A stretch of 35,573 nt of DNA from Desulfurococcales archaeon (GTDB lineage Archaea > Thermoproteota > Thermoprotei_A > Sulfolobales > Acidilobaceae): assembly GCA_015521115.1 (NCBI GenBank), contig WAOT01000025.1, forward strand, positions 1 through 35,573, given 5' to 3'. The notes beneath the pieces were generated by a model. That model did no database searches. It had not been told where the DNA came from and saw only the letters and a program-made list of their open reading frames with translations. Positions 2,567 through 28,565 of the stretch are shown in pieces (position 1 is the stretch's first letter; every line of letters begins with the position of its first letter). Position numbers and translations under genes: made by a program.

Positions 2567-3283
2567 CTACCTCTTCCTCCTTCCTGTCCTCCTTGCTGCT
2601 ATGTGACCTACCTTCCTTCCTGGTGGGGTTTCTCTTGCTACAGTTGAGGGGTGGCTCCTCCTCTGGTGGCTTCCTCCGCCGAATGGGTGGTTTACTGCGT
2701 TCATTGCTACACCTCTCACTCTAGGCCATTTCCTAGCCTTCACCTTCCACTTGTAGTATGCGTTTCCTGCCCTCATTAGGGGCTTCTCTGTTCTCCCCGC
2801 TCCCGCTGGGATCCCTATGGTTACTCTTGAGCCGTTTGGTATGTCCTTCTCCTTCCCACTCGGCAGTTTGATACGTGTTTTCGCTCCCGTTCTTCCAACT
2901 ACTAGGGCATAGCTCCCTGCCTGTCTTGCGAGTTTTCCTCCGTCTCCCGGTCTTATCTCTATGTTGAACACCTCTGTCCCTTCTGGGACGTTCTCTATTG
3001 GGAGGATGTTGCCGGGCTCTGGCTTGGCGTTTGGGCCTACCTCTATTATTTGTCCCACGTAGCTACCCTCTGCTGCTGGTGTTAGGAATTCTACTCCATT
3101 CTCAAGTACTACCCTTGCGAGGGGCACATAACGGCCTGGGTCGTGTAGTAGTTCGACGATCTTGCCCTTATAGGTCTCGTTCGATAGTGGTGGGTAGCGT
3201 GCTGGGCCTGGGTGTATGTGCTTTGGGCTTCTGTACGTGGGAGATCCTTTACCTGCTCTCTGCTGTCTCAGCCTTTTACCCAT
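2567..3283 (-). CDS. rpl2: 50S ribosomal protein L2 (uL2)
   Basis: Large-subunit protein uL2, which binds 23S rRNA close to the peptidyl-transferase centre. The sequence begins MGKRLRQQRAGKGSP and includes the conserved loop MNAVNHPFGGGSHQ with the functionally important His, then a basic C-terminus ending GRRKR. It has 238 residues, usual for archaea. A longer frame reaches back to 3358, but ATG 3283 gives the family N-terminus and has GGGGGAAG just upstream. It lies 55 nt behind cedB on the same strand and has a TATA-like box of its own at 3340-3348. It is separated from rpl3-rpl4-rpl23, which are on the other strand 5 kb away, unlike the usual L3-L4-L23-L2 order. Confidence 0.97.
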   Translation of the reverse strand: MGKRLRQQRAGKGSPTYRSPKHIHPGPARYPPLSNETYKGKIVELLHDPGRYVPLARVVLENGVEFLTPAAEGSYVGQIIEVGPNAKPEPGNILPIENVPEGTEVFNIEIRPGDGGKLARQAGSYALVVGRTGAKTRIKLPSGKEKDIPNGSRVTIGIPAGAGRTEKPLMRAGNAYYKWKVKARKWPRVRGVAMNAVNHPFGGGSHQRRSHPSTVARETPPGRKVGHIAARRTGRRKR

Positions 3284-3338: not shown

Positions 3339-4673
3339 TTATTTAAGGTATTCCGCAAAGTTGAACGCTTTCAGTCTCACAGGAATAGAGCTCCTCTTCC
3401 TTACAACCGCTGACCCGACAGGCAGGTACCTGACCATCTGAGACGGGACTCCAAGCCTATCGGCTTTTTCGGTGTATGATTCCGAGTCTGACCCGAAGAC
3501 TATGAGTGTCCCAGTGTTCTCCACTATGTTGCTGTTCACATCGCTGAATGCCTGGGTTGCATATACTATATGGAGGCCGAGGCTTCTCCCCTGCCTGATG
3601 CTCTCCTCCAGGTAATGTTCTGCCACATCTATGAACTTCCAGGCCTCGTCTATGAAGATTACGGTTCTCCGTCTAGGCTTATCCTTATAGTAGCATTCGA
3701 GAAGATCTGAGATGAGTCTTCTCCCGGCTTCTATATCCGGGTTTTCTATAATGTGTATGGCTGGGCGTGTGCATAGCTCTCTAATTTCGACTCTTGGTTG
3801 GTGGATCTCTATGCTTGAATGGGGTATCCTTGAAGCGTATGCTGCCAGGTCTCCTTTGGGGTCGATGACTATGATGTTGGGCTCCCCTGTCTCCTCCTGG
3901 AGCATGGATAGCTGGAGCATTATACCGGCCATTAGGACTGTCTTCCCCTTGCCTGTAGGGCCGAATACTCCTATATGTGTCTCGAAGTCCTCGGGCCACT
4001 TTAGGGTTACAAGGCTGTTATATTCGGGGTTAACTCCGAGGACTACGGAGTTGTCTCCTGTCTCCTCGAGCCAGGGGACTGCGATCTCGATATGTGACGA
4101 GCCTGTCACGGTAAGGGGTTTTAATAGGGCGTCTATTATGCTCGATGATACACGTTTAAACACGAGGCCGGTCTCCGCCTCAATTAGTGTTTTGAGGGCC
4201 TCCGCTCCGGGGTGCCTTGGGGGGTGCCATATTATTAGGGTGGTAGCACCAGTATAGGGTCGGGTACTTCTTAGCACGTCTGAGTAGAGGGCCTCTAGTG
4301 TTTTGAGCTTCTCACCATACTTCTTCGACTTTGTGGCCTCATATGCTAGGGAGACTTTTTCTATTTCCTTTTCTAATCTTTTTATTAATTTAGATTTATC
4401 TGCCTTCACTAGTGTAAATGCTAAGGTGACGTTCAGGCCGGACTGCCTTATGAGGGTTGTGAGACGCGCACCCAGTGTGGGGTCGGGATCTCCCCGTGGG
4501 AGCTGGGCGATATAGATTGTAGGCTCTAGTCTGACTCCTTGGAGGATCACTTCCTCTGAACCGCACTTTTTAAGTGGTCTTAGCCCCTGGAGTCCCGACT
4601 CGTTAAGATTTCTAAACATTAATATTATTGTTATTATTGCTAATATTCCTATACTAATATCGAACAAGCCCAT
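3339..4673 (-). CDS. cedB: CedB, VirB4/HerA-like DNA-import ATPase
   Basis: Membrane-anchored ATPase of the crenarchaeal DNA-import (Ced) system. Residues about 6-20 form one hydrophobic anchor (ISIGILAIITIILMF), followed by a cytoplasmic region with a charged coiled-coil-like stretch at about 93-130. The RecA-type motor then has Walker A GPTGKGKT at 238-245, DPKGD at 271-275, Walker B VIFIDEAW at 338-345 and QGRSLGLH with a candidate arginine finger at 361-368. This pattern is that of VirB4/TraC and HerA/CedB motors. Assignment to CedB rather than another HerA-like protein rests mainly on the adjacent cedA-like and cedA1-like genes. It starts 11 nt after cedA stops, with GGGAGATCC before the ATG. 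Confidence 0.82.
   Translation of the reverse strand: MGLFDISIGILAIITIILMFRNLNESGLQGLRPLKKCGSEEVILQGVRLEPTIYIAQLPRGDPDPTLGARLTTLIRQSGLNVTLAFTLVKADKSKLIKRLEKEIEKVSLAYEATKSKKYGEKLKTLEALYSDVLRSTRPYTGATTLIIWHPPRHPGAEALKTLIEAETGLVFKRVSSSIIDALLKPLTVTGSSHIEIAVPWLEETGDNSVVLGVNPEYNSLVTLKWPEDFETHIGVFGPTGKGKTVLMAGIMLQLSMLQEETGEPNIIVIDPKGDLAAYASRIPHSSIEIHQPRVEIRELCTRPAIHIIENPDIEAGRRLISDLLECYYKDKPRRRTVIFIDEAWKFIDVAEHYLEESIRQGRSLGLHIVYATQAFSDVNSNIVENTGTLIVFGSDSESYTEKADRLGVPSQMVRYLPVGSAVVRKRSSIPVRLKAFNFAEYLK
3340..3348 (-). promoter_or_regulatory. Putative TATA box for rpl2
   Basis: On the minus strand this reads CCTTAAATA, overlapping the cedB stop codon. A transcript starting about 26 bp downstream would begin near 3318 and leave a leader of roughly 35 nt before the rpl2 ATG. 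It suggests that rpl2 can be transcribed independently of the ced genes. Sequence-based prediction only. Confidence 0.5.
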
Positions 4674-4684
4674 GGATCTCCCCT

Positions 4685-6064
4685 CTAGAAGACCCTTAAG
4701 GGGAACCTTTCCCTTCCTCCCAGTAGCCTGGCCACACCTAGGCTGGCTGAGGTTAGTATCGCTATGTAAATCGTGGGGATCGTGAACCAGTACGCTATGA
4801 ACGCTTGGATAACGTTTATGTCATAGTAGGCTGCGATCTTCTTCGCTATGTTAACATAGTCCTTTGTATCATATGAGATGTGTAGTTGTGGGCAGTCCGC
4901 TGTTACTTGGAAGTGGTAGTCTCCAGCGTCTGGTGCCTCATACTTAATGGCCTGGCCGTGAAGGTCTCCCCACTGCCATTCCGATTCTCCTACTTCCTGG
5001 AGGCCTCCAGGGTCAATGTCAATAGTACACCCGTCGACATACCTTACTGATACGTATTGGCCTTGTTGTAGGTGGATTACACCTTCAACTGTCCCACCAT
5101 TTCTTGAGGCTGAGAGGATCTCCCCGTTCGTGTAAACTGCTATCCCGTTCCGCGCTGTTAGTGCATATGATGTTTTGAGGTCTATGCTCCACGCTCCTTC
5201 TACTATCTTGTAGTCGGTCTTGTTGACAGGATATGGTTCCAGGTAGAATGTGACGTTGAGGTATACTAGTTTATAGGCGAGGTTTGGCTTGCTAGGTATT
5301 GTGACGATCGTGGAGCCGTGATCGTTCATTATGGTTCCATTCTCGGCCAGGTATACCGCGTATACTTCACCCGTGTCCGCGTCTGTTACCAGAATGACAC
5401 CGTCCGCAGGGCCCTCCATTGTTGACACGTTCCCTTTGAGGAGTGCTAACCCCTTCTCAGCTATCGGCCCTATCCCTATCGGTTGGGGGGTTCCTCCTAT
5501 TGCTGTGGCAAATACGGGAAGTGCTTGGAGTCCTGCTGTGAATACTAGTATGAATGATAGTAGCCATGCTCCAGCGCTTCTTGCCACGCGGAAGGGGGCG
5601 GCGTAGAGGGCTACGCCTATCGCTGCTAGGAGGCGGCCGTACACTTTCACGATCTCGGCTAGCCCTACTATGAAGGCTATGAAGAATAGTGCCGTAGTTG
5701 CTAGCCTGTCTAGGGGCTTTACGACTACCTGTGCACCACGGAGGACTCCCAGAGGGTCTGGGAGGACGTTAAGGAGTGCTGCTACAGCTTTGATTGTGAG
5801 GAACTCCGCTATGCCCCCCATTGCCCATGATTCTAGGAGCTCCCATGAGCCTCCCGCCATGGCTGCCAGTGTGTTAGCGAGCTGGAAGAGTGCCTCAAAG
5901 ACTAGGACTATGACTAACGCCCCTATACCGTCCGCTAAGAGGCGGGGTGCCCATCTTTTCAAGCCCTGATAGGGTATGGGGAGCGCGTAGATGAGTGCTC
6001 CTAGGTAGAATGTTAGGACTGAGAGACGGTAGGCTAGGATGAGGTAGTCAACCTCTCCCGCCAT
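4685..6064 (-). CDS. cedA: CedA, polytopic membrane channel component of the Ced DNA importer
   Basis: Integral membrane protein of 459 residues, proposed as the VirB6-like channel of the Ced system. Hydrophobic segments occur at about 7-30, 42-68, 120-158 (probably two) and 163-190, with a final one at about 418-446. Between them, residues about 205-412 form a hydrophilic, probably beta-rich domain predicted to face outside. It carries four N-x-S/T sequons (N212, N242, N270, N281) and two cysteines (346 and 391) that could pair. The extracellular domain makes it longer than I would expect for a simple 6-7-segment CedA. Sequence similarity alone is weak: the call depends on topology plus its place between cedA1 and cedB. 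Confidence 0.75.
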   Translation of the reverse strand: MAGEVDYLILAYRLSVLTFYLGALIYALPIPYQGLKRWAPRLLADGIGALVIVLVFEALFQLANTLAAMAGGSWELLESWAMGGIAEFLTIKAVAALLNVLPDPLGVLRGAQVVVKPLDRLATTALFFIAFIVGLAEIVKVYGRLLAAIGVALYAAPFRVARSAGAWLLSFILVFTAGLQALPVFATAIGGTPQPIGIGPIAEKGLALLKGNVSTMEGPADGVILVTDADTGEVYAVYLAENGTIMNDHGSTIVTIPSKPNLAYKLVYLNVTFYLEPYPVNKTDYKIVEGAWSIDLKTSYALTARNGIAVYTNGEILSASRNGGTVEGVIHLQQGQYVSVRYVDGCTIDIDPGGLQEVGESEWQWGDLHGQAIKYEAPDAGDYHFQVTADCPQLHISYDTKDYVNIAKKIAAYYDINVIQAFIAYWFTIPTIYIAILTSASLGVARLLGGRERFPLRVF

Positions 6065-6094
6065 CCTAGGGGCACCCCGGGCTACTCTATTCCC

Positions 6095-6346
6095 TTAGCC
6101 TCCCGTCACAAGGTTCACCAGGTACACGATGAGGTTGAACACGGTGCTACCGACCGCAAGCCAAAAGGCTGCCCATACAGAGTCTTCTACGAGGCTCCCG
6201 CCCATTCTCTTGAGTTTACCTATTGGTATTGGTGAGCCCCTGAGTGTCCAGCCCAGGCTCCATGTGAATAGGAATAACGCCCATGCTAGTGCTGTCACCT
6301 TGTTGGTAGCGTCCTGAACCAGCGCTAACAGGTCTTGGAAGGCCAA
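6095..6346 (-). CDS. cedA1: CedA1, two-helix pilin-like subunit of the Ced system
   Basis: Small membrane protein of 83 residues with two hydrophobic helices (about 17-36 and 56-80) joined by a short basic loop, GSPIPIGKLKRMGG. That hairpin architecture and size match CedA1, which has been reported to form the conjugation-type pilus in Aeropyrum. No cleavable signal peptide is obvious. The start is TTG at 6346, supported by GGGTGTG a few bases upstream and a TATA-like box at 6378-6386. It is the first gene of the cedA1-cedA-cedB set, 30 nt before cedA. A separate cedA2 is not visible nearby. Call based on topology and context. Confidence 0.76.
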   Translation of the reverse strand: MAFQDLLALVQDATNKVTALAWALFLFTWSLGWTLRGSPIPIGKLKRMGGSLVEDSVWAAFWLAVGSTVFNLIVYLVNLVTGG

Positions 6347-6377: not shown

Positions 6378-6386
6378 CTATTTAAG
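6378..6386 (-). promoter_or_regulatory. Putative TATA box of the ced operon
   Basis: The minus strand reads CTTAAATAG here. It is about 35 bp before the cedA1 TTG start, placing the transcript start near 6356 with a leader of about 10 nt. The same TTAAATA core occurs before rpl2. Prediction from position and composition only. Confidence 0.5.
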
Positions 6387-8490: not shown

Positions 8491-9558
8491 ATGGGAGCAC
8501 GTAAGAAGAGCGCACCTAGAAGAGGGAGCCTAGGGTACTCGCCGAGGAAGAGAGCCAGCAGGCTAGTACCAAGAGTGAAGAGCTGGCCACAAGTGGATCT
8601 AGGCGAGCCAAAGCTACTTGCATTCCTCGGTTACAAGGCAGGCATGACCCATGCCTATATTATCGAGGACAGGCTGGGGAGCCCTTGGAAGGGCCAGGAG
8701 GTGTTTGTCCCCGTCACTATAGTCGAGACCCCTCCCGTCTTCGTGTTCGGCATTAGGCTTTACGGTTACGACCCAAACAGGGGCCTCTACAGTATGGGCG
8801 AGGCCTGGGCAGAGCCTCCGAGCGAGTTAGAGCTCCACAGGAAGATACCCACCCTAGGAGGCTTCTCAGAGGAGAAGATCAAGAGGCTCGAAGACATGCT
8901 CGATAAGGCTAGAGACGTTAGGGTCATAATAGCTACACAGCCTAAGCTTGTCGGAGGACTGAGCAAGAAGAAGCCTGACCTGCTCGAGGTCAAAGTGGGA
9001 GGCGTCAACGATATCCAAAAGCTCTTCGAGTACGCAAAGGGGATTCTAGGCAAGACGGTATCCGTCAAGGACGTATTCTACCCTGGGCAGCTTGTTGACG
9101 TAATAGCAGTCACGAGAGGCAAAGGGTTCCAAGGGCCCGTGAAGAGGTGGGGAGTCAAGGAGCTCCCCAGATGGCACAAGCACAGGAAAGGTAGCAGAAG
9201 GGTTGGCGCAAGGAGCCATGGAAAGGGTACCTGGTGGGAGATCCCACAGGCAGGTCAGACCGGATATCATAGGAGGACAGAGTATAACAAGAGGGTTCTA
9301 GCTATAGGCGAAAAGGGGTATGAGGTCACACCTGCCGGCGGATTCCTCCACTACGGTGTTGTGAAGAGCAGCTATATGCTGCTAGCAGGGAGCATACCAG
9401 GCGTTCCCAAGAGACCCGTAGTGTTGAGGTGGCCCGTCAGGGTGCCCAGGTGGTATATGAAGCTGCTTGAGGAGCAGAGGAAGAGCGAGAAGACGCTCGT
9501 CGCCCCACACCCGCCCAGGATCACTTATCTAAGCCTCTCAAGTAAGCAGGGCAACTAG
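8491..9558 (+). CDS. rpl3: 50S ribosomal protein L3 (uL3)
   Basis: Large-subunit assembly protein uL3 with a long extension reaching the peptidyl-transferase centre. Archaeal features are the basic start MGARKKSAPRRGSLGYSPRKR, LLAFLGYKAGMTH, and VIAVTRGKGFQGPVKRWGV followed by KHRKGSRRVGARS, which covers the rRNA-contacting extension. 355 residues is typical for crenarchaea. The ATG follows GGGGATC at a workable distance and lies downstream of a TATA-like box at 8408-8416. It is the first gene of rpl3-rpl4-rpl23. Confidence 0.97.
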   Translation: MGARKKSAPRRGSLGYSPRKRASRLVPRVKSWPQVDLGEPKLLAFLGYKAGMTHAYIIEDRLGSPWKGQEVFVPVTIVETPPVFVFGIRLYGYDPNRGLYSMGEAWAEPPSELELHRKIPTLGGFSEEKIKRLEDMLDKARDVRVIIATQPKLVGGLSKKKPDLLEVKVGGVNDIQKLFEYAKGILGKTVSVKDVFYPGQLVDVIAVTRGKGFQGPVKRWGVKELPRWHKHRKGSRRVGARSHGKGTWWEIPQAGQTGYHRRTEYNKRVLAIGEKGYEVTPAGGFLHYGVVKSSYMLLAGSIPGVPKRPVVLRWPVRVPRWYMKLLEEQRKSEKTLVAPHPPRITYLSLSSKQGN

Positions 9559-9574
9559 CTGGGGGTGGTCTAGG

Positions 9575-10393
9575 ATGGTATACACGGTAGCAGCACTCTA
9601 CCTCCGCGAGCCCCTCTCAGTCCCTGTATACACGTGGGAGGGGGGAGACGCGGGCCAGGCAGTACTCCCGGACGTGTTCAGGCTACCCATAAGGAAGGAT
9701 CTCATAAGGAGAGTATTCCTCAGCGAGTTCACAGCACGCCTACAGCCAAAAGGACGAGACCCAATGGCAGGCAAAAGGACGAGCGCGAGGAGCCTAGGTG
9801 CACACCACGGTGTCTCGAGAGTGCCTAGAATAAGGGGTACACTCAGGGGAGCACTAGTAAACATGACTAGAGGGGGAAGACTGGCACACCCACCAAGGGT
9901 TGAGAAGGTCATTCACGAGAGAGTGAACAGGAGGGAGAAGATCCTTGGAACAATGAGCGCGCTCGCCGCCACAAGCGTTCCAGAGATAGTCAAAGCTAGG
10001 GGCCACCTGTTCAACACACAATACCTCCCCATAGTGGTCGAGAAAGAAGTTCTAACTAAGATAACAACAACGAAACAGGCTCTAGCACTCCTTGAGAAAC
10101 TCGGAGTAATCGACGATATTATCCGGGCTAAGGAGAAGATAAGGCAGAGAGCCGGCAAGGGTAAGAGGAGAGGTAGGAGGCTGAAGAAGCCTAAGAGCAT
10201 ACTCTTCGTGCTAGACGACCACAACAGCCCCTTCGCCAAAGCGGTCAAGGGGCTCCCAGGAGTTGACGTTGTAGAACCAGCCCATATCAACGTGCTTGTA
10301 CTGGCACCGGGAGGAGAACCTGGTAGGCTAATGTTCATAACCGACACCGCACTAAGGGAGCTTGGTGAGAGGTATAGGGTGATAGTGCCTTGA
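9575..10393 (+). CDS. rpl4: 50S ribosomal protein L4 (uL4)
   Basis: uL4 lines the exit tunnel. The protein has the archaeal/eukaryotic pattern: the rRNA-binding loop (residues about 60-100) includes [28 protein letters not shown] and [13 protein letters not shown]-terminal globular part begins at SILFVLDDH and ends in [14 protein letters not shown]. It starts 16 nt after rpl3 and overlaps the rpl23 start by four bases (TTGA). 272 residues is usual for archaeal L4. Confidence 0.97.
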
Positions 10394-10650
10394 GGAATGA
10401 GGAGGTAATCATCAGGATACATATGAGCGAGAAAGCCCTCCAACTCATAGAGGAGCAAAACACACTCACCCTCATAGTAAGGAGGGACGCAACAAAGCAC
10501 CAGATAAAGAAGGCTGTAGAGGAGATCTATGGAGTTAAAGTCGACAAGGTCAGGACACTGATAACACCTAGAGGGGAGAAGAAGGCCTACGTAAAGCTAT
10601 CAAAGGAGTATAAGGCCAGCGAGCTAGCCACTCGCCTCGGACTCATTTGA
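10390..10650 (+). CDS. rpl23: 50S ribosomal protein L23 (uL23)
   Basis: uL23 sits at the tunnel exit and is a docking site for SRP and chaperones. The 86-residue protein has the family order: [18 protein letters not shown], then [27 protein letters not shown] and a final [11 protein letters not shown]. The TTG start overlaps the rpl4 stop as TTGA and is supported by AGGGTGAT about seven bases earlier. The usual next gene, rpl2, is absent; instead the stop region overlaps the end of a convergent Mrp-family gene by 27 nt. Confidence 0.95.
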
Positions 10651-23937: not shown

Positions 23938-24591
23938 TTATAATAAATTTTTATATCTTTCTATCACAAGCCATACGATATAAATTGATATGAGAGGTAT
24001 TGCTACTAGTACGTATACCCCGTAATTGTTCACATTGAAGGCTAAAGGAGGTATTAGCAGCACCATTGATATTGCTGCTATAATCATTCCGTACGGCATG
24101 TACACTATGAATAACGAAGATAAAGCTAAAGAAATGCTAAGTATTGATAATATAATATTAATATTATAAATTTCAATATTAGTTAATATTATGAAATTTA
24201 TTGATAAAATTGATAAAAATATCACTAATCTTCCAATTGCTAAACCCGTCTTCACTACGCGAATAACAGGATACTGCTTCTTCACTTCCTCTTCAAGGCG
24301 GGATAGGTACTCGATAGCAGCTTCCAGATTTCTGTTGTCAATCGCTTTATCCAGGAGCCGCCCATAGTATGATATCCTGTCCGGCAGATCTTTTCCGAGT
24401 CCCGAAATAGTAACTATATAGTCTCTGAGCATCCGGATCTGGTCATAGAGCCTCTCACTTACTACTCCCCACTCCTCATACCTATCAGCTAGTGCTGAGG
24501 ATTTAGAGAATGCCCTGTATAGCGTGTCTAGCTCTTCGTAGAGGGTGTTATCATACAATCTAAGCCCCCCGGAGACTTGCTCCGGGATCAC
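23938..24591 (-). CDS. Membrane protein with N-terminal helical domain, unknown function
   Basis: 217 residues. Residues 1-110 are hydrophilic and helical (EELDTLYRAFSKSSALADR, EAAIEYLSRLEEEVKKQY), perhaps a cytoplasmic coiled-coil. The remainder has about four hydrophobic segments (about 118-136, 142-163, 165-182 and 190-210). The membrane half is written in extremely AT-rich codons (ATT/ATA/AAT) unlike the G+C-rich neighbours. The GTG start follows the Lhr helicase stop by 3 nt, so the two are probably co-transcribed. No family recognised. Confidence 0.75.
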   Translation of the reverse strand: MIPEQVSGGLRLYDNTLYEELDTLYRAFSKSSALADRYEEWGVVSERLYDQIRMLRDYIVTISGLGKDLPDRISYYGRLLDKAIDNRNLEAAIEYLSRLEEEVKKQYPVIRVVKTGLAIGRLVIFLSILSINFIILTNIEIYNINIILSILSISLALSSLFIVYMPYGMIIAAISMVLLIPPLAFNVNNYGVYVLVAIPLISIYIVWLVIERYKNLL

Positions 24592-27845: not shown

Positions 27846-28565
27846 TTGAAAGTCACTGTTAAACTATATAGTATTCTAAGAGATCTAGCGGGAAGGAGCA
27901 ATATTGTGGTCGAAGTGGGCCCGGGTCAGAGAGTCGAAGAAATAGTCAACTCCGTCCTTAACCGGTTAGGCATACTGGACGAGATCCAGAAAATGGGCCT
28001 TCAAATTGTTGTACTCTCTAACAGGGGGGAGAGGCTTAGACAGGAAGATATCATTGACGGTAATCTCGAAACCCTACATTTAATGCCGCCCTCTAGCGGT
28101 GGCGAGGATGTGCTAGCACTGGTCGCGGAACAAGAGGATCCTAATAAGCTAATATCTCAAGTTCTAGAGTTCCTTGTGGAAAGCGCTGGTGAGGACAGTG
28201 ATGTTGGCGCCGTCCTGTTATTCGTTGGCGTTGTAAGAGGGGTTAACCAGGGGAAGAGGGTAAACGAACTATTCTACGAGGACGCTGGTGAACTTACGGA
28301 GAAGAAACTCTCGGAAATAGCTTTGGAAGCCTTGAAGGCAGAAGGGGTGAGGAGAGTAGCGGCAATACATTACAAAGGCTCTAGGAGGCCGGGTGACGTT
28401 ACAATGGTCGTCGGAGTAGCTGGTGCTAGCCGAAAACACGTATTCCCCGTCTTATCCGGCCTTATAGAGAGAATAAAGCATGAGCTCCCTATATGGAAGC
28501 TGGAGAAGAGGGAAGACGGGGACTACTATATATTTGGCGATAAATTCTACAGGAAGAGGGCCTAG
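27846..28565 (+). CDS. MoaD-MoaE fusion, molybdopterin synthase
   Basis: One chain containing both subunits of molybdopterin synthase, which inserts the dithiolene sulfurs into precursor Z (cPMP). Residues 1-86 are a MoaD/ThiS-like beta-grasp ending LHLMPPSSGG, whose last Gly should become a thiocarboxylate. MoaE follows at about 88-239, with VGAVLLFVGVVRG, LFYEDAGELTEKKL, HYKGSRRPGDVTMVVGV and the catalytic-lysine region LPIWKLEKRED. Because the Gly-Gly is internal, the protein must be cut after Gly86 or work unconventionally; Mycobacterium MoaX is a described fusion that is cleaved. TTG start with GGTGAT seven bases upstream. Confidence 0.9.
   Translation: MKVTVKLYSILRDLAGRSNIVVEVGPGQRVEEIVNSVLNRLGILDEIQKMGLQIVVLSNRGERLRQEDIIDGNLETLHLMPPSSGGEDVLALVAEQEDPNKLISQVLEFLVESAGEDSDVGAVLLFVGVVRGVNQGKRVNELFYEDAGELTEKKLSEIALEALKAEGVRRVAAIHYKGSRRPGDVTMVVGVAGASRKHVFPVLSGLIERIKHELPIWKLEKREDGDYYIFGDKFYRKRA

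Follow-up and report, generated by a model that had tools for sequence, protein, structure and literature searches.

A three-gene Ced locus beside rpl2 in a Desulfurococcales archaeon

Three adjacent minus-strand genes of the window (the whole stretch of 35,573 nucleotides analyzed here) very probably specify the central components of a chromosomal Ced (crenarchaeal DNA exchange) apparatus, a domesticated relative of type IV secretion systems in which CedA1 would form the pilus, CedA the channel, and CedB together with CedD the motor, with DNA imported for repair. The locus adds one more example to a known system, its layout matching that of A. pernix. Its genes, and the downstream neighbor that lies outside Ced, are as follows:

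6095..6346, minus strand: cedA1, 83 aa, two-helix pilin, TTG start
4685..6064, minus strand: cedA, 459 aa, VirB6-like channel protein with a predicted extracytoplasmic insert
3339..4673, minus strand: cedB, 444 aa, membrane-anchored FtsK-HerA-superfamily ATPase
2567..3283, minus strand: rpl2 (ribosomal protein L2), start at 3283, PF03947 at 8.5e-42

The original prediction had described a tight minus-strand unit composed of a two-helix protein of 83 residues, a polytopic membrane protein and an ATPase with a membrane anchor, followed directly by rpl2, and this description is accurate. ORF coordinates, strands and sizes are correct, with gaps of 30 nt between cedA1 and cedA (6065-6094) and 11 nt between cedA and cedB (4674-4684); hydropathy scans give two helices in CedA1, six hydrophobic stretches in CedA and a single N-terminal stretch in the ATPase (residues 2-20); and the PF03947 gene lies on the same strand, 55 nt past cedB. 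Homology and the occurrence of the same gene order in many genomes establish that the gene set is more than a chance assembly.

From the functions of relatives (PMC9905601, PMC11868833) a working scheme can be outlined. CedA1 would polymerize with membrane lipids to give a hollow pilus, as it should if it behaves like its A. pernix orthologue, with CedA as a VirB6-like membrane channel at the pilus base. The N-terminal pilin-like hairpin of CedA probably docks or nucleates the pilus, and the extracytoplasmic beta-domain of the same protein would point towards the S-layer. CedB, which has a single N-terminal anchor helix, would pair with CedD as a VirB4-type motor that pulls DNA inward, where it would enter recombinational repair. 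We infer the partnership of the two ATPases, the direction of transport and the role in repair from relatives, import for repair in particular deriving from Sulfolobales genetics; DNA transfer itself has been demonstrated in Sulfolobales, outside the family of the window.

The gene for CedD lies on a different contig of the same genome (C31:68.4-69.9 kb, 492 aa, NF053655 at 2.3e-66) and its product groups with other CedD sequences in a tree. Since CedD, a second Ced ATPase, is thus encoded elsewhere in the genome and import in Sa. islandicus cannot proceed without it (PMC11868833), the earlier idea that the window holds a minimal Ced machine is wrong and is corrected here. A rather unlikely reading of these genes is a T4SS-like system whose main role is the export of DNA or protein, or one that works in both directions: bacterial relatives do export, and deletion of CedA1 halves DNA export in Sa. 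islandicus, but deletions of CedA, CedB and CedD abolish import and leave export unchanged (PMC11868833).

Pilin, neighborhood and ATPase

CedA1 scores 116.9 bits against NF041797 (NCBIfam), above the cut-off of 100, and aligns with the solved A. pernix pilin (PDB 8dfu) over 76 residues with an E value of 1.4e-30; a PIP..LKR-type loop is seen across an alignment of 41 CedA1 orthologues. When the three proteins are compared with the CedA, CedA1 and CedB models it is CedA1 that passes its curated cut-off, CedA and CedB falling below theirs. The assignment as a Ced locus, proposed originally from the letters of the window, is borne out by this CedA1 score, by a match of CedA to NF041796 and by the position of the ATPase on the CedB side of a tree. 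A scan of named genomes for orthologues of the ced genes returned two loci only, both unrelated.

The order cedA1-cedA-cedB is found in six families (f1, f4, f7, f8, f9 and f10, where f1 is the family of the window), usually beside rpl2 and/or rpl3-rpl4. The CedA1 of locus L076 (genome G027) is identical to 8dfu throughout the matched part, and on the basis of that sequence the locus is taken to be A. pernix. Proximity to ribosomal-protein genes is common and, in much of the order, probably an ancestral trait, which speaks against a mobile origin of this ced copy. It is very improbable that the three genes come from an integrated conjugative element or plasmid and are not the host's own: VirB2-, VirB4- and VirB6-like parts are typical of conjugation systems, but the gene order beside rpl2 or rpl3-rpl4 is shared by six families, the flanking genes are orthologous within the same genus (L063, L065) and no element-type genes were recognized among the window ORFs read.

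Other features of the window may be recorded here. The S10-type ribosomal cluster is split, with rpl3-rpl4-rpl23 on the plus strand (8491-10650) and rpl2 on the minus strand behind cedB. At 27846-28565 a protein with a MoaE domain (residues 114-213) is encoded whose N-terminal part appears MoaD-like by eye, a possible MoaD-MoaE fusion, and the 217-aa protein encoded at 23938-24591 has no match in Pfam and is hydrophobic in parts of its C-terminal half.

The ATPase matches AAA_10 and DUF87 in Pfam and contains the P-loop VirB4/HerA core. Against the CedB model NF041017 it scores 43 bits, where the curated cut-off is 700, and the values for VirB4 (41) and CedD (38) are nearly equal to this one, so that its identity was tested by means of a tree. 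This tree comprises 63 sequences (the window protein, the cedA neighbors of other families, curated Sulfolobaceae CedB, CedD and HerA-like proteins) and leaves out Thermoproteales TedB and bacterial VirB4. A branch with 100/99 support has all 32 CedB rows, the window ATPase among them, on one side and CedD (99/94) and the HerA-like rows, including the HerA of the same genome, on the other; the clustering with HerA-NurA motors that would have spoken against the original reading is not seen. That the ATPase instead serves HerA-NurA repair and has nothing to do with DNA import is scarcely credible. Pfam does give it DUF87 and HerA-type matches, but a separate HerA is encoded in the genome at C52 (411 bits), the branch just described sets HerA and CedD apart from the CedB group, and cedB starts 11 nt after cedA. 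An AlphaFold2 single-sequence model of CedB has a mean pLDDT of 42.6.

A divergently oriented FtsK-HerA-superfamily ATPase gene, for a protein of 619-652 aa, lies upstream of cedA1 in f4, f7, f8 and f9 (L045, L052, L057, L058, L080, L081; e.g. L080:13161-15020). These proteins form a clade of their own (SH-aLRT 98), apart from CedB, CedD and HerA, and are not CedB. In f7 genomes with no strong CedD the upstream ATPase may act as a stand-in for it.

CedA domains and CedA2

Two regions of CedA deserve separate description:

5861..6040, minus strand: N-terminal hairpin, homologous to the CedA1 pilin (PIP..LKR loop), from tblastn, BLASTP and profile matches
4820..5488, minus strand: beta-rich domain of ~220 aa, predicted to be extracytoplasmic, about residues 193-415, an insert with respect to the 259-position CedA model

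The membrane core of the protein (residues 4-192) matches NF041796 at 3.5e-41, and the score of 141 bits lies under the curated cut-off of 330, a value that fits the short Sulfolobaceae CedA. The CedE model is matched at 2.7e-25, and orthology of CedA is transitive through 40 loci. Similarity of the hairpin to the CedA1 pilin is found by tblastn of the genome (E 0.017) and by BLASTP (3e-5), and with CedA1 as the query the CedE and CedA models are hit at 8.9e-8 and 2e-6, respectively. Homology of the CedA N-terminus to the pilin has already been published (PMC9905601) and was dropped as a point of novelty.

The extra domain separates the last two membrane stretches. Its location is suggested to be outside the cell by four N-glycosylation sequons, by the positive-inside rule and by a Cys346/Cys391 pair that 16 of 18 f1 sequences share. 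It is the faster-evolving part of the protein, with 23% identity to the window sequence within f1 as compared to 39-45% for the membrane parts. An AlphaFold2 model, which is good in the later half of the ectodomain only, shows a confident beta-sandwich there, and a Foldseek search with the ectodomain model gave no match below E 1e-3. Outside f11 CedA nearly always carries this domain: the length of the protein is 444-534 aa in every sampled family except f11, where it is short in 19 of 19 loci (252-310 aa), and one f3 genus. No mention of the ectodomain was found in the Ced papers searched, and since the original description of Ced lies beyond that search its novelty is uncertain.

The f3 genus with a short CedA is g50, with proteins of 281 and 326 aa at L190 (G092) and L252 (G121), respectively; other f3 members have the long form. 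At L190 an intact short CedA is followed by a small two-helix ORF.

Seven small ORFs situated behind cedA in Sulfolobaceae-like genomes, regarded as CedA2 because of their size, position and two helices, served to build a CedA2 profile. Searched genome-wide, this profile finds no CedA2 in the window genome at E <= 0.1, and confident matches among 197 genomes are confined to f11. The statement that no cedA2 is nearby is thus true, and extends to the whole genome, but is not peculiar to this locus: CedA2 is not conserved (PMC9905601) and, by that report and our profile, its absence is the norm outside Sulfolobaceae. Close behind cedA in most f2, f3 and f11 loci there is a two-helix ORF of 44-63 aa, and in these families cedB is located elsewhere, whereas in f1, f4, f7, f8, f9 and f10 it directly follows cedA. 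Such an ORF was not found in the four f5 loci. As the f11 profile does not pick up the f2 and f3 ORFs, kinship of these ORFs to CedA2 is no more than a lead. The papers searched do not mention that the small ORF is restricted to families with cedB elsewhere. The idea that CedA2 and the CedB anchor are related through a VirB3-like split or fusion was rejected, as there is no clean swap between the two: the N-terminal helix of CedB is present in f1 and f11 yet missing from f4 and f9.

It is conceivable, although we regard it as doubtful, that Ced occurs in two builds. Throughout most of the order the CedA beta-domain would meet the S-layer or the partner cell; f11, and in part one f3 genus, would have lost the domain and make contact through Ups pili. 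A small two-helix CedA2-like protein would stand behind cedA where cedB has moved (f2, f3, f11) and be missing where cedB comes next, as if CedA2 performed a docking task that otherwise falls to a co-encoded CedA-CedB pair.

Predicted promoters and a damage-response element

Identical TATA-like elements precede the ced unit and rpl2:

6379..6386, minus strand: TATA-like CTTAAATA preceding the ced unit, 33 nt ahead of the TTG that starts cedA1
3340..3347, minus strand: TATA-like CTTAAATA assigned to rpl2, lying across the final codons and the stop of cedB

The TATA box that had been predicted for the ced unit is present (CTTAAATA at 6386-6379), and many relatives have an A/T-rich box 25-40 nt before the cedA1 start. 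A separate promoter for rpl2 had been proposed as well and is supported by conservation of the TATA-like box in the cedB coding tail. TTAAA(A/T) is found at a similar place upstream of rpl2 in all 13 examined f1 loci in which rpl2 is next, and two further f1 loci have a weaker TTAAT; among 11 f1 loci without rpl2 next, only two contain an exact TTAAA within the final 75 nt of cedB. The loci share descent, and the motif is mostly written by codons of an EYLKK- or LLKK-type cedB ending, so that constraint on the protein is a possible contributor to these counts. A TATA box for rpl2 in the cedB coding tail was not found in the papers searched.

ANTTTC is the Orc1-2 DNA-damage element (PMC9738581). 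In 11 of 11 f9 genomes it is located 52-62 nt before cedA1, where shuffled sequences lead one to expect 1.3; both f10 genomes have it at 56-58 nt and 5 of 11 f7 genomes contain it. Occurrence of the element at a fixed distance from cedA1 thus extends beyond Sulfolobaceae-like genomes, and its presence in f9, f10 and partly f7 was not found in the papers searched. For the window family there is no clear enrichment (7 of 32, at scattered places, with 4.4 expected), and none was seen upstream of the window cedA1. Pili are seen in A. pernix, whereas ced genes of Sulfolobales need UV (PMC9905601), and the absence of ANTTTC may explain this difference.

Significance and comparison with known systems

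The locus adds another genus beside Aeropyrum with what is predicted to be a full pilus-forming Ced locus and suggests that the rpl2-adjacent arrangement is old. It also provides leads on unstudied parts of the system, namely the CedA ectodomain and the role of CedA2, and on why Aeropyrum-type pili appear without deliberate DNA damage when those of Sulfolobales are damage-dependent.

The A. pernix locus (L076) has cedA1-cedA-cedB-rpl2 in the same order and on the same strand, with no CedA2 found, CedD elsewhere and proteins of 452 aa (CedA) and 461 aa (CedB); its CedA1 is 62% identical to that of the window, and its CedB about a third identical. The Ced system of Sulfolobales (S. acidocaldarius, Sa. 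islandicus) shares orthologues of CedA1, the CedA core, CedB and CedD, but there CedA is short, CedA2 comes after cedA and cedB is elsewhere. Thermoproteales Ted (TedA, TedB, TedC) likewise combines a pilin, a channel and a VirB4-like ATPase; no recognizable sequence similarity between Ced and Ted components has been reported (PMC9905601), and TedC is cleaved by signal peptidase whereas CedA1 is uncleaved. With the bacterial conjugative T4SS (VirB2, VirB4, VirB6) the Ced apparatus has in common a lipid pilin, a channel and an ATPase, and it differs in being chromosomal and domesticated, with neither relaxase nor outer-membrane core. Rickettsia is known to have VirB6-family proteins that additional sequence has made larger (PMC2653234).
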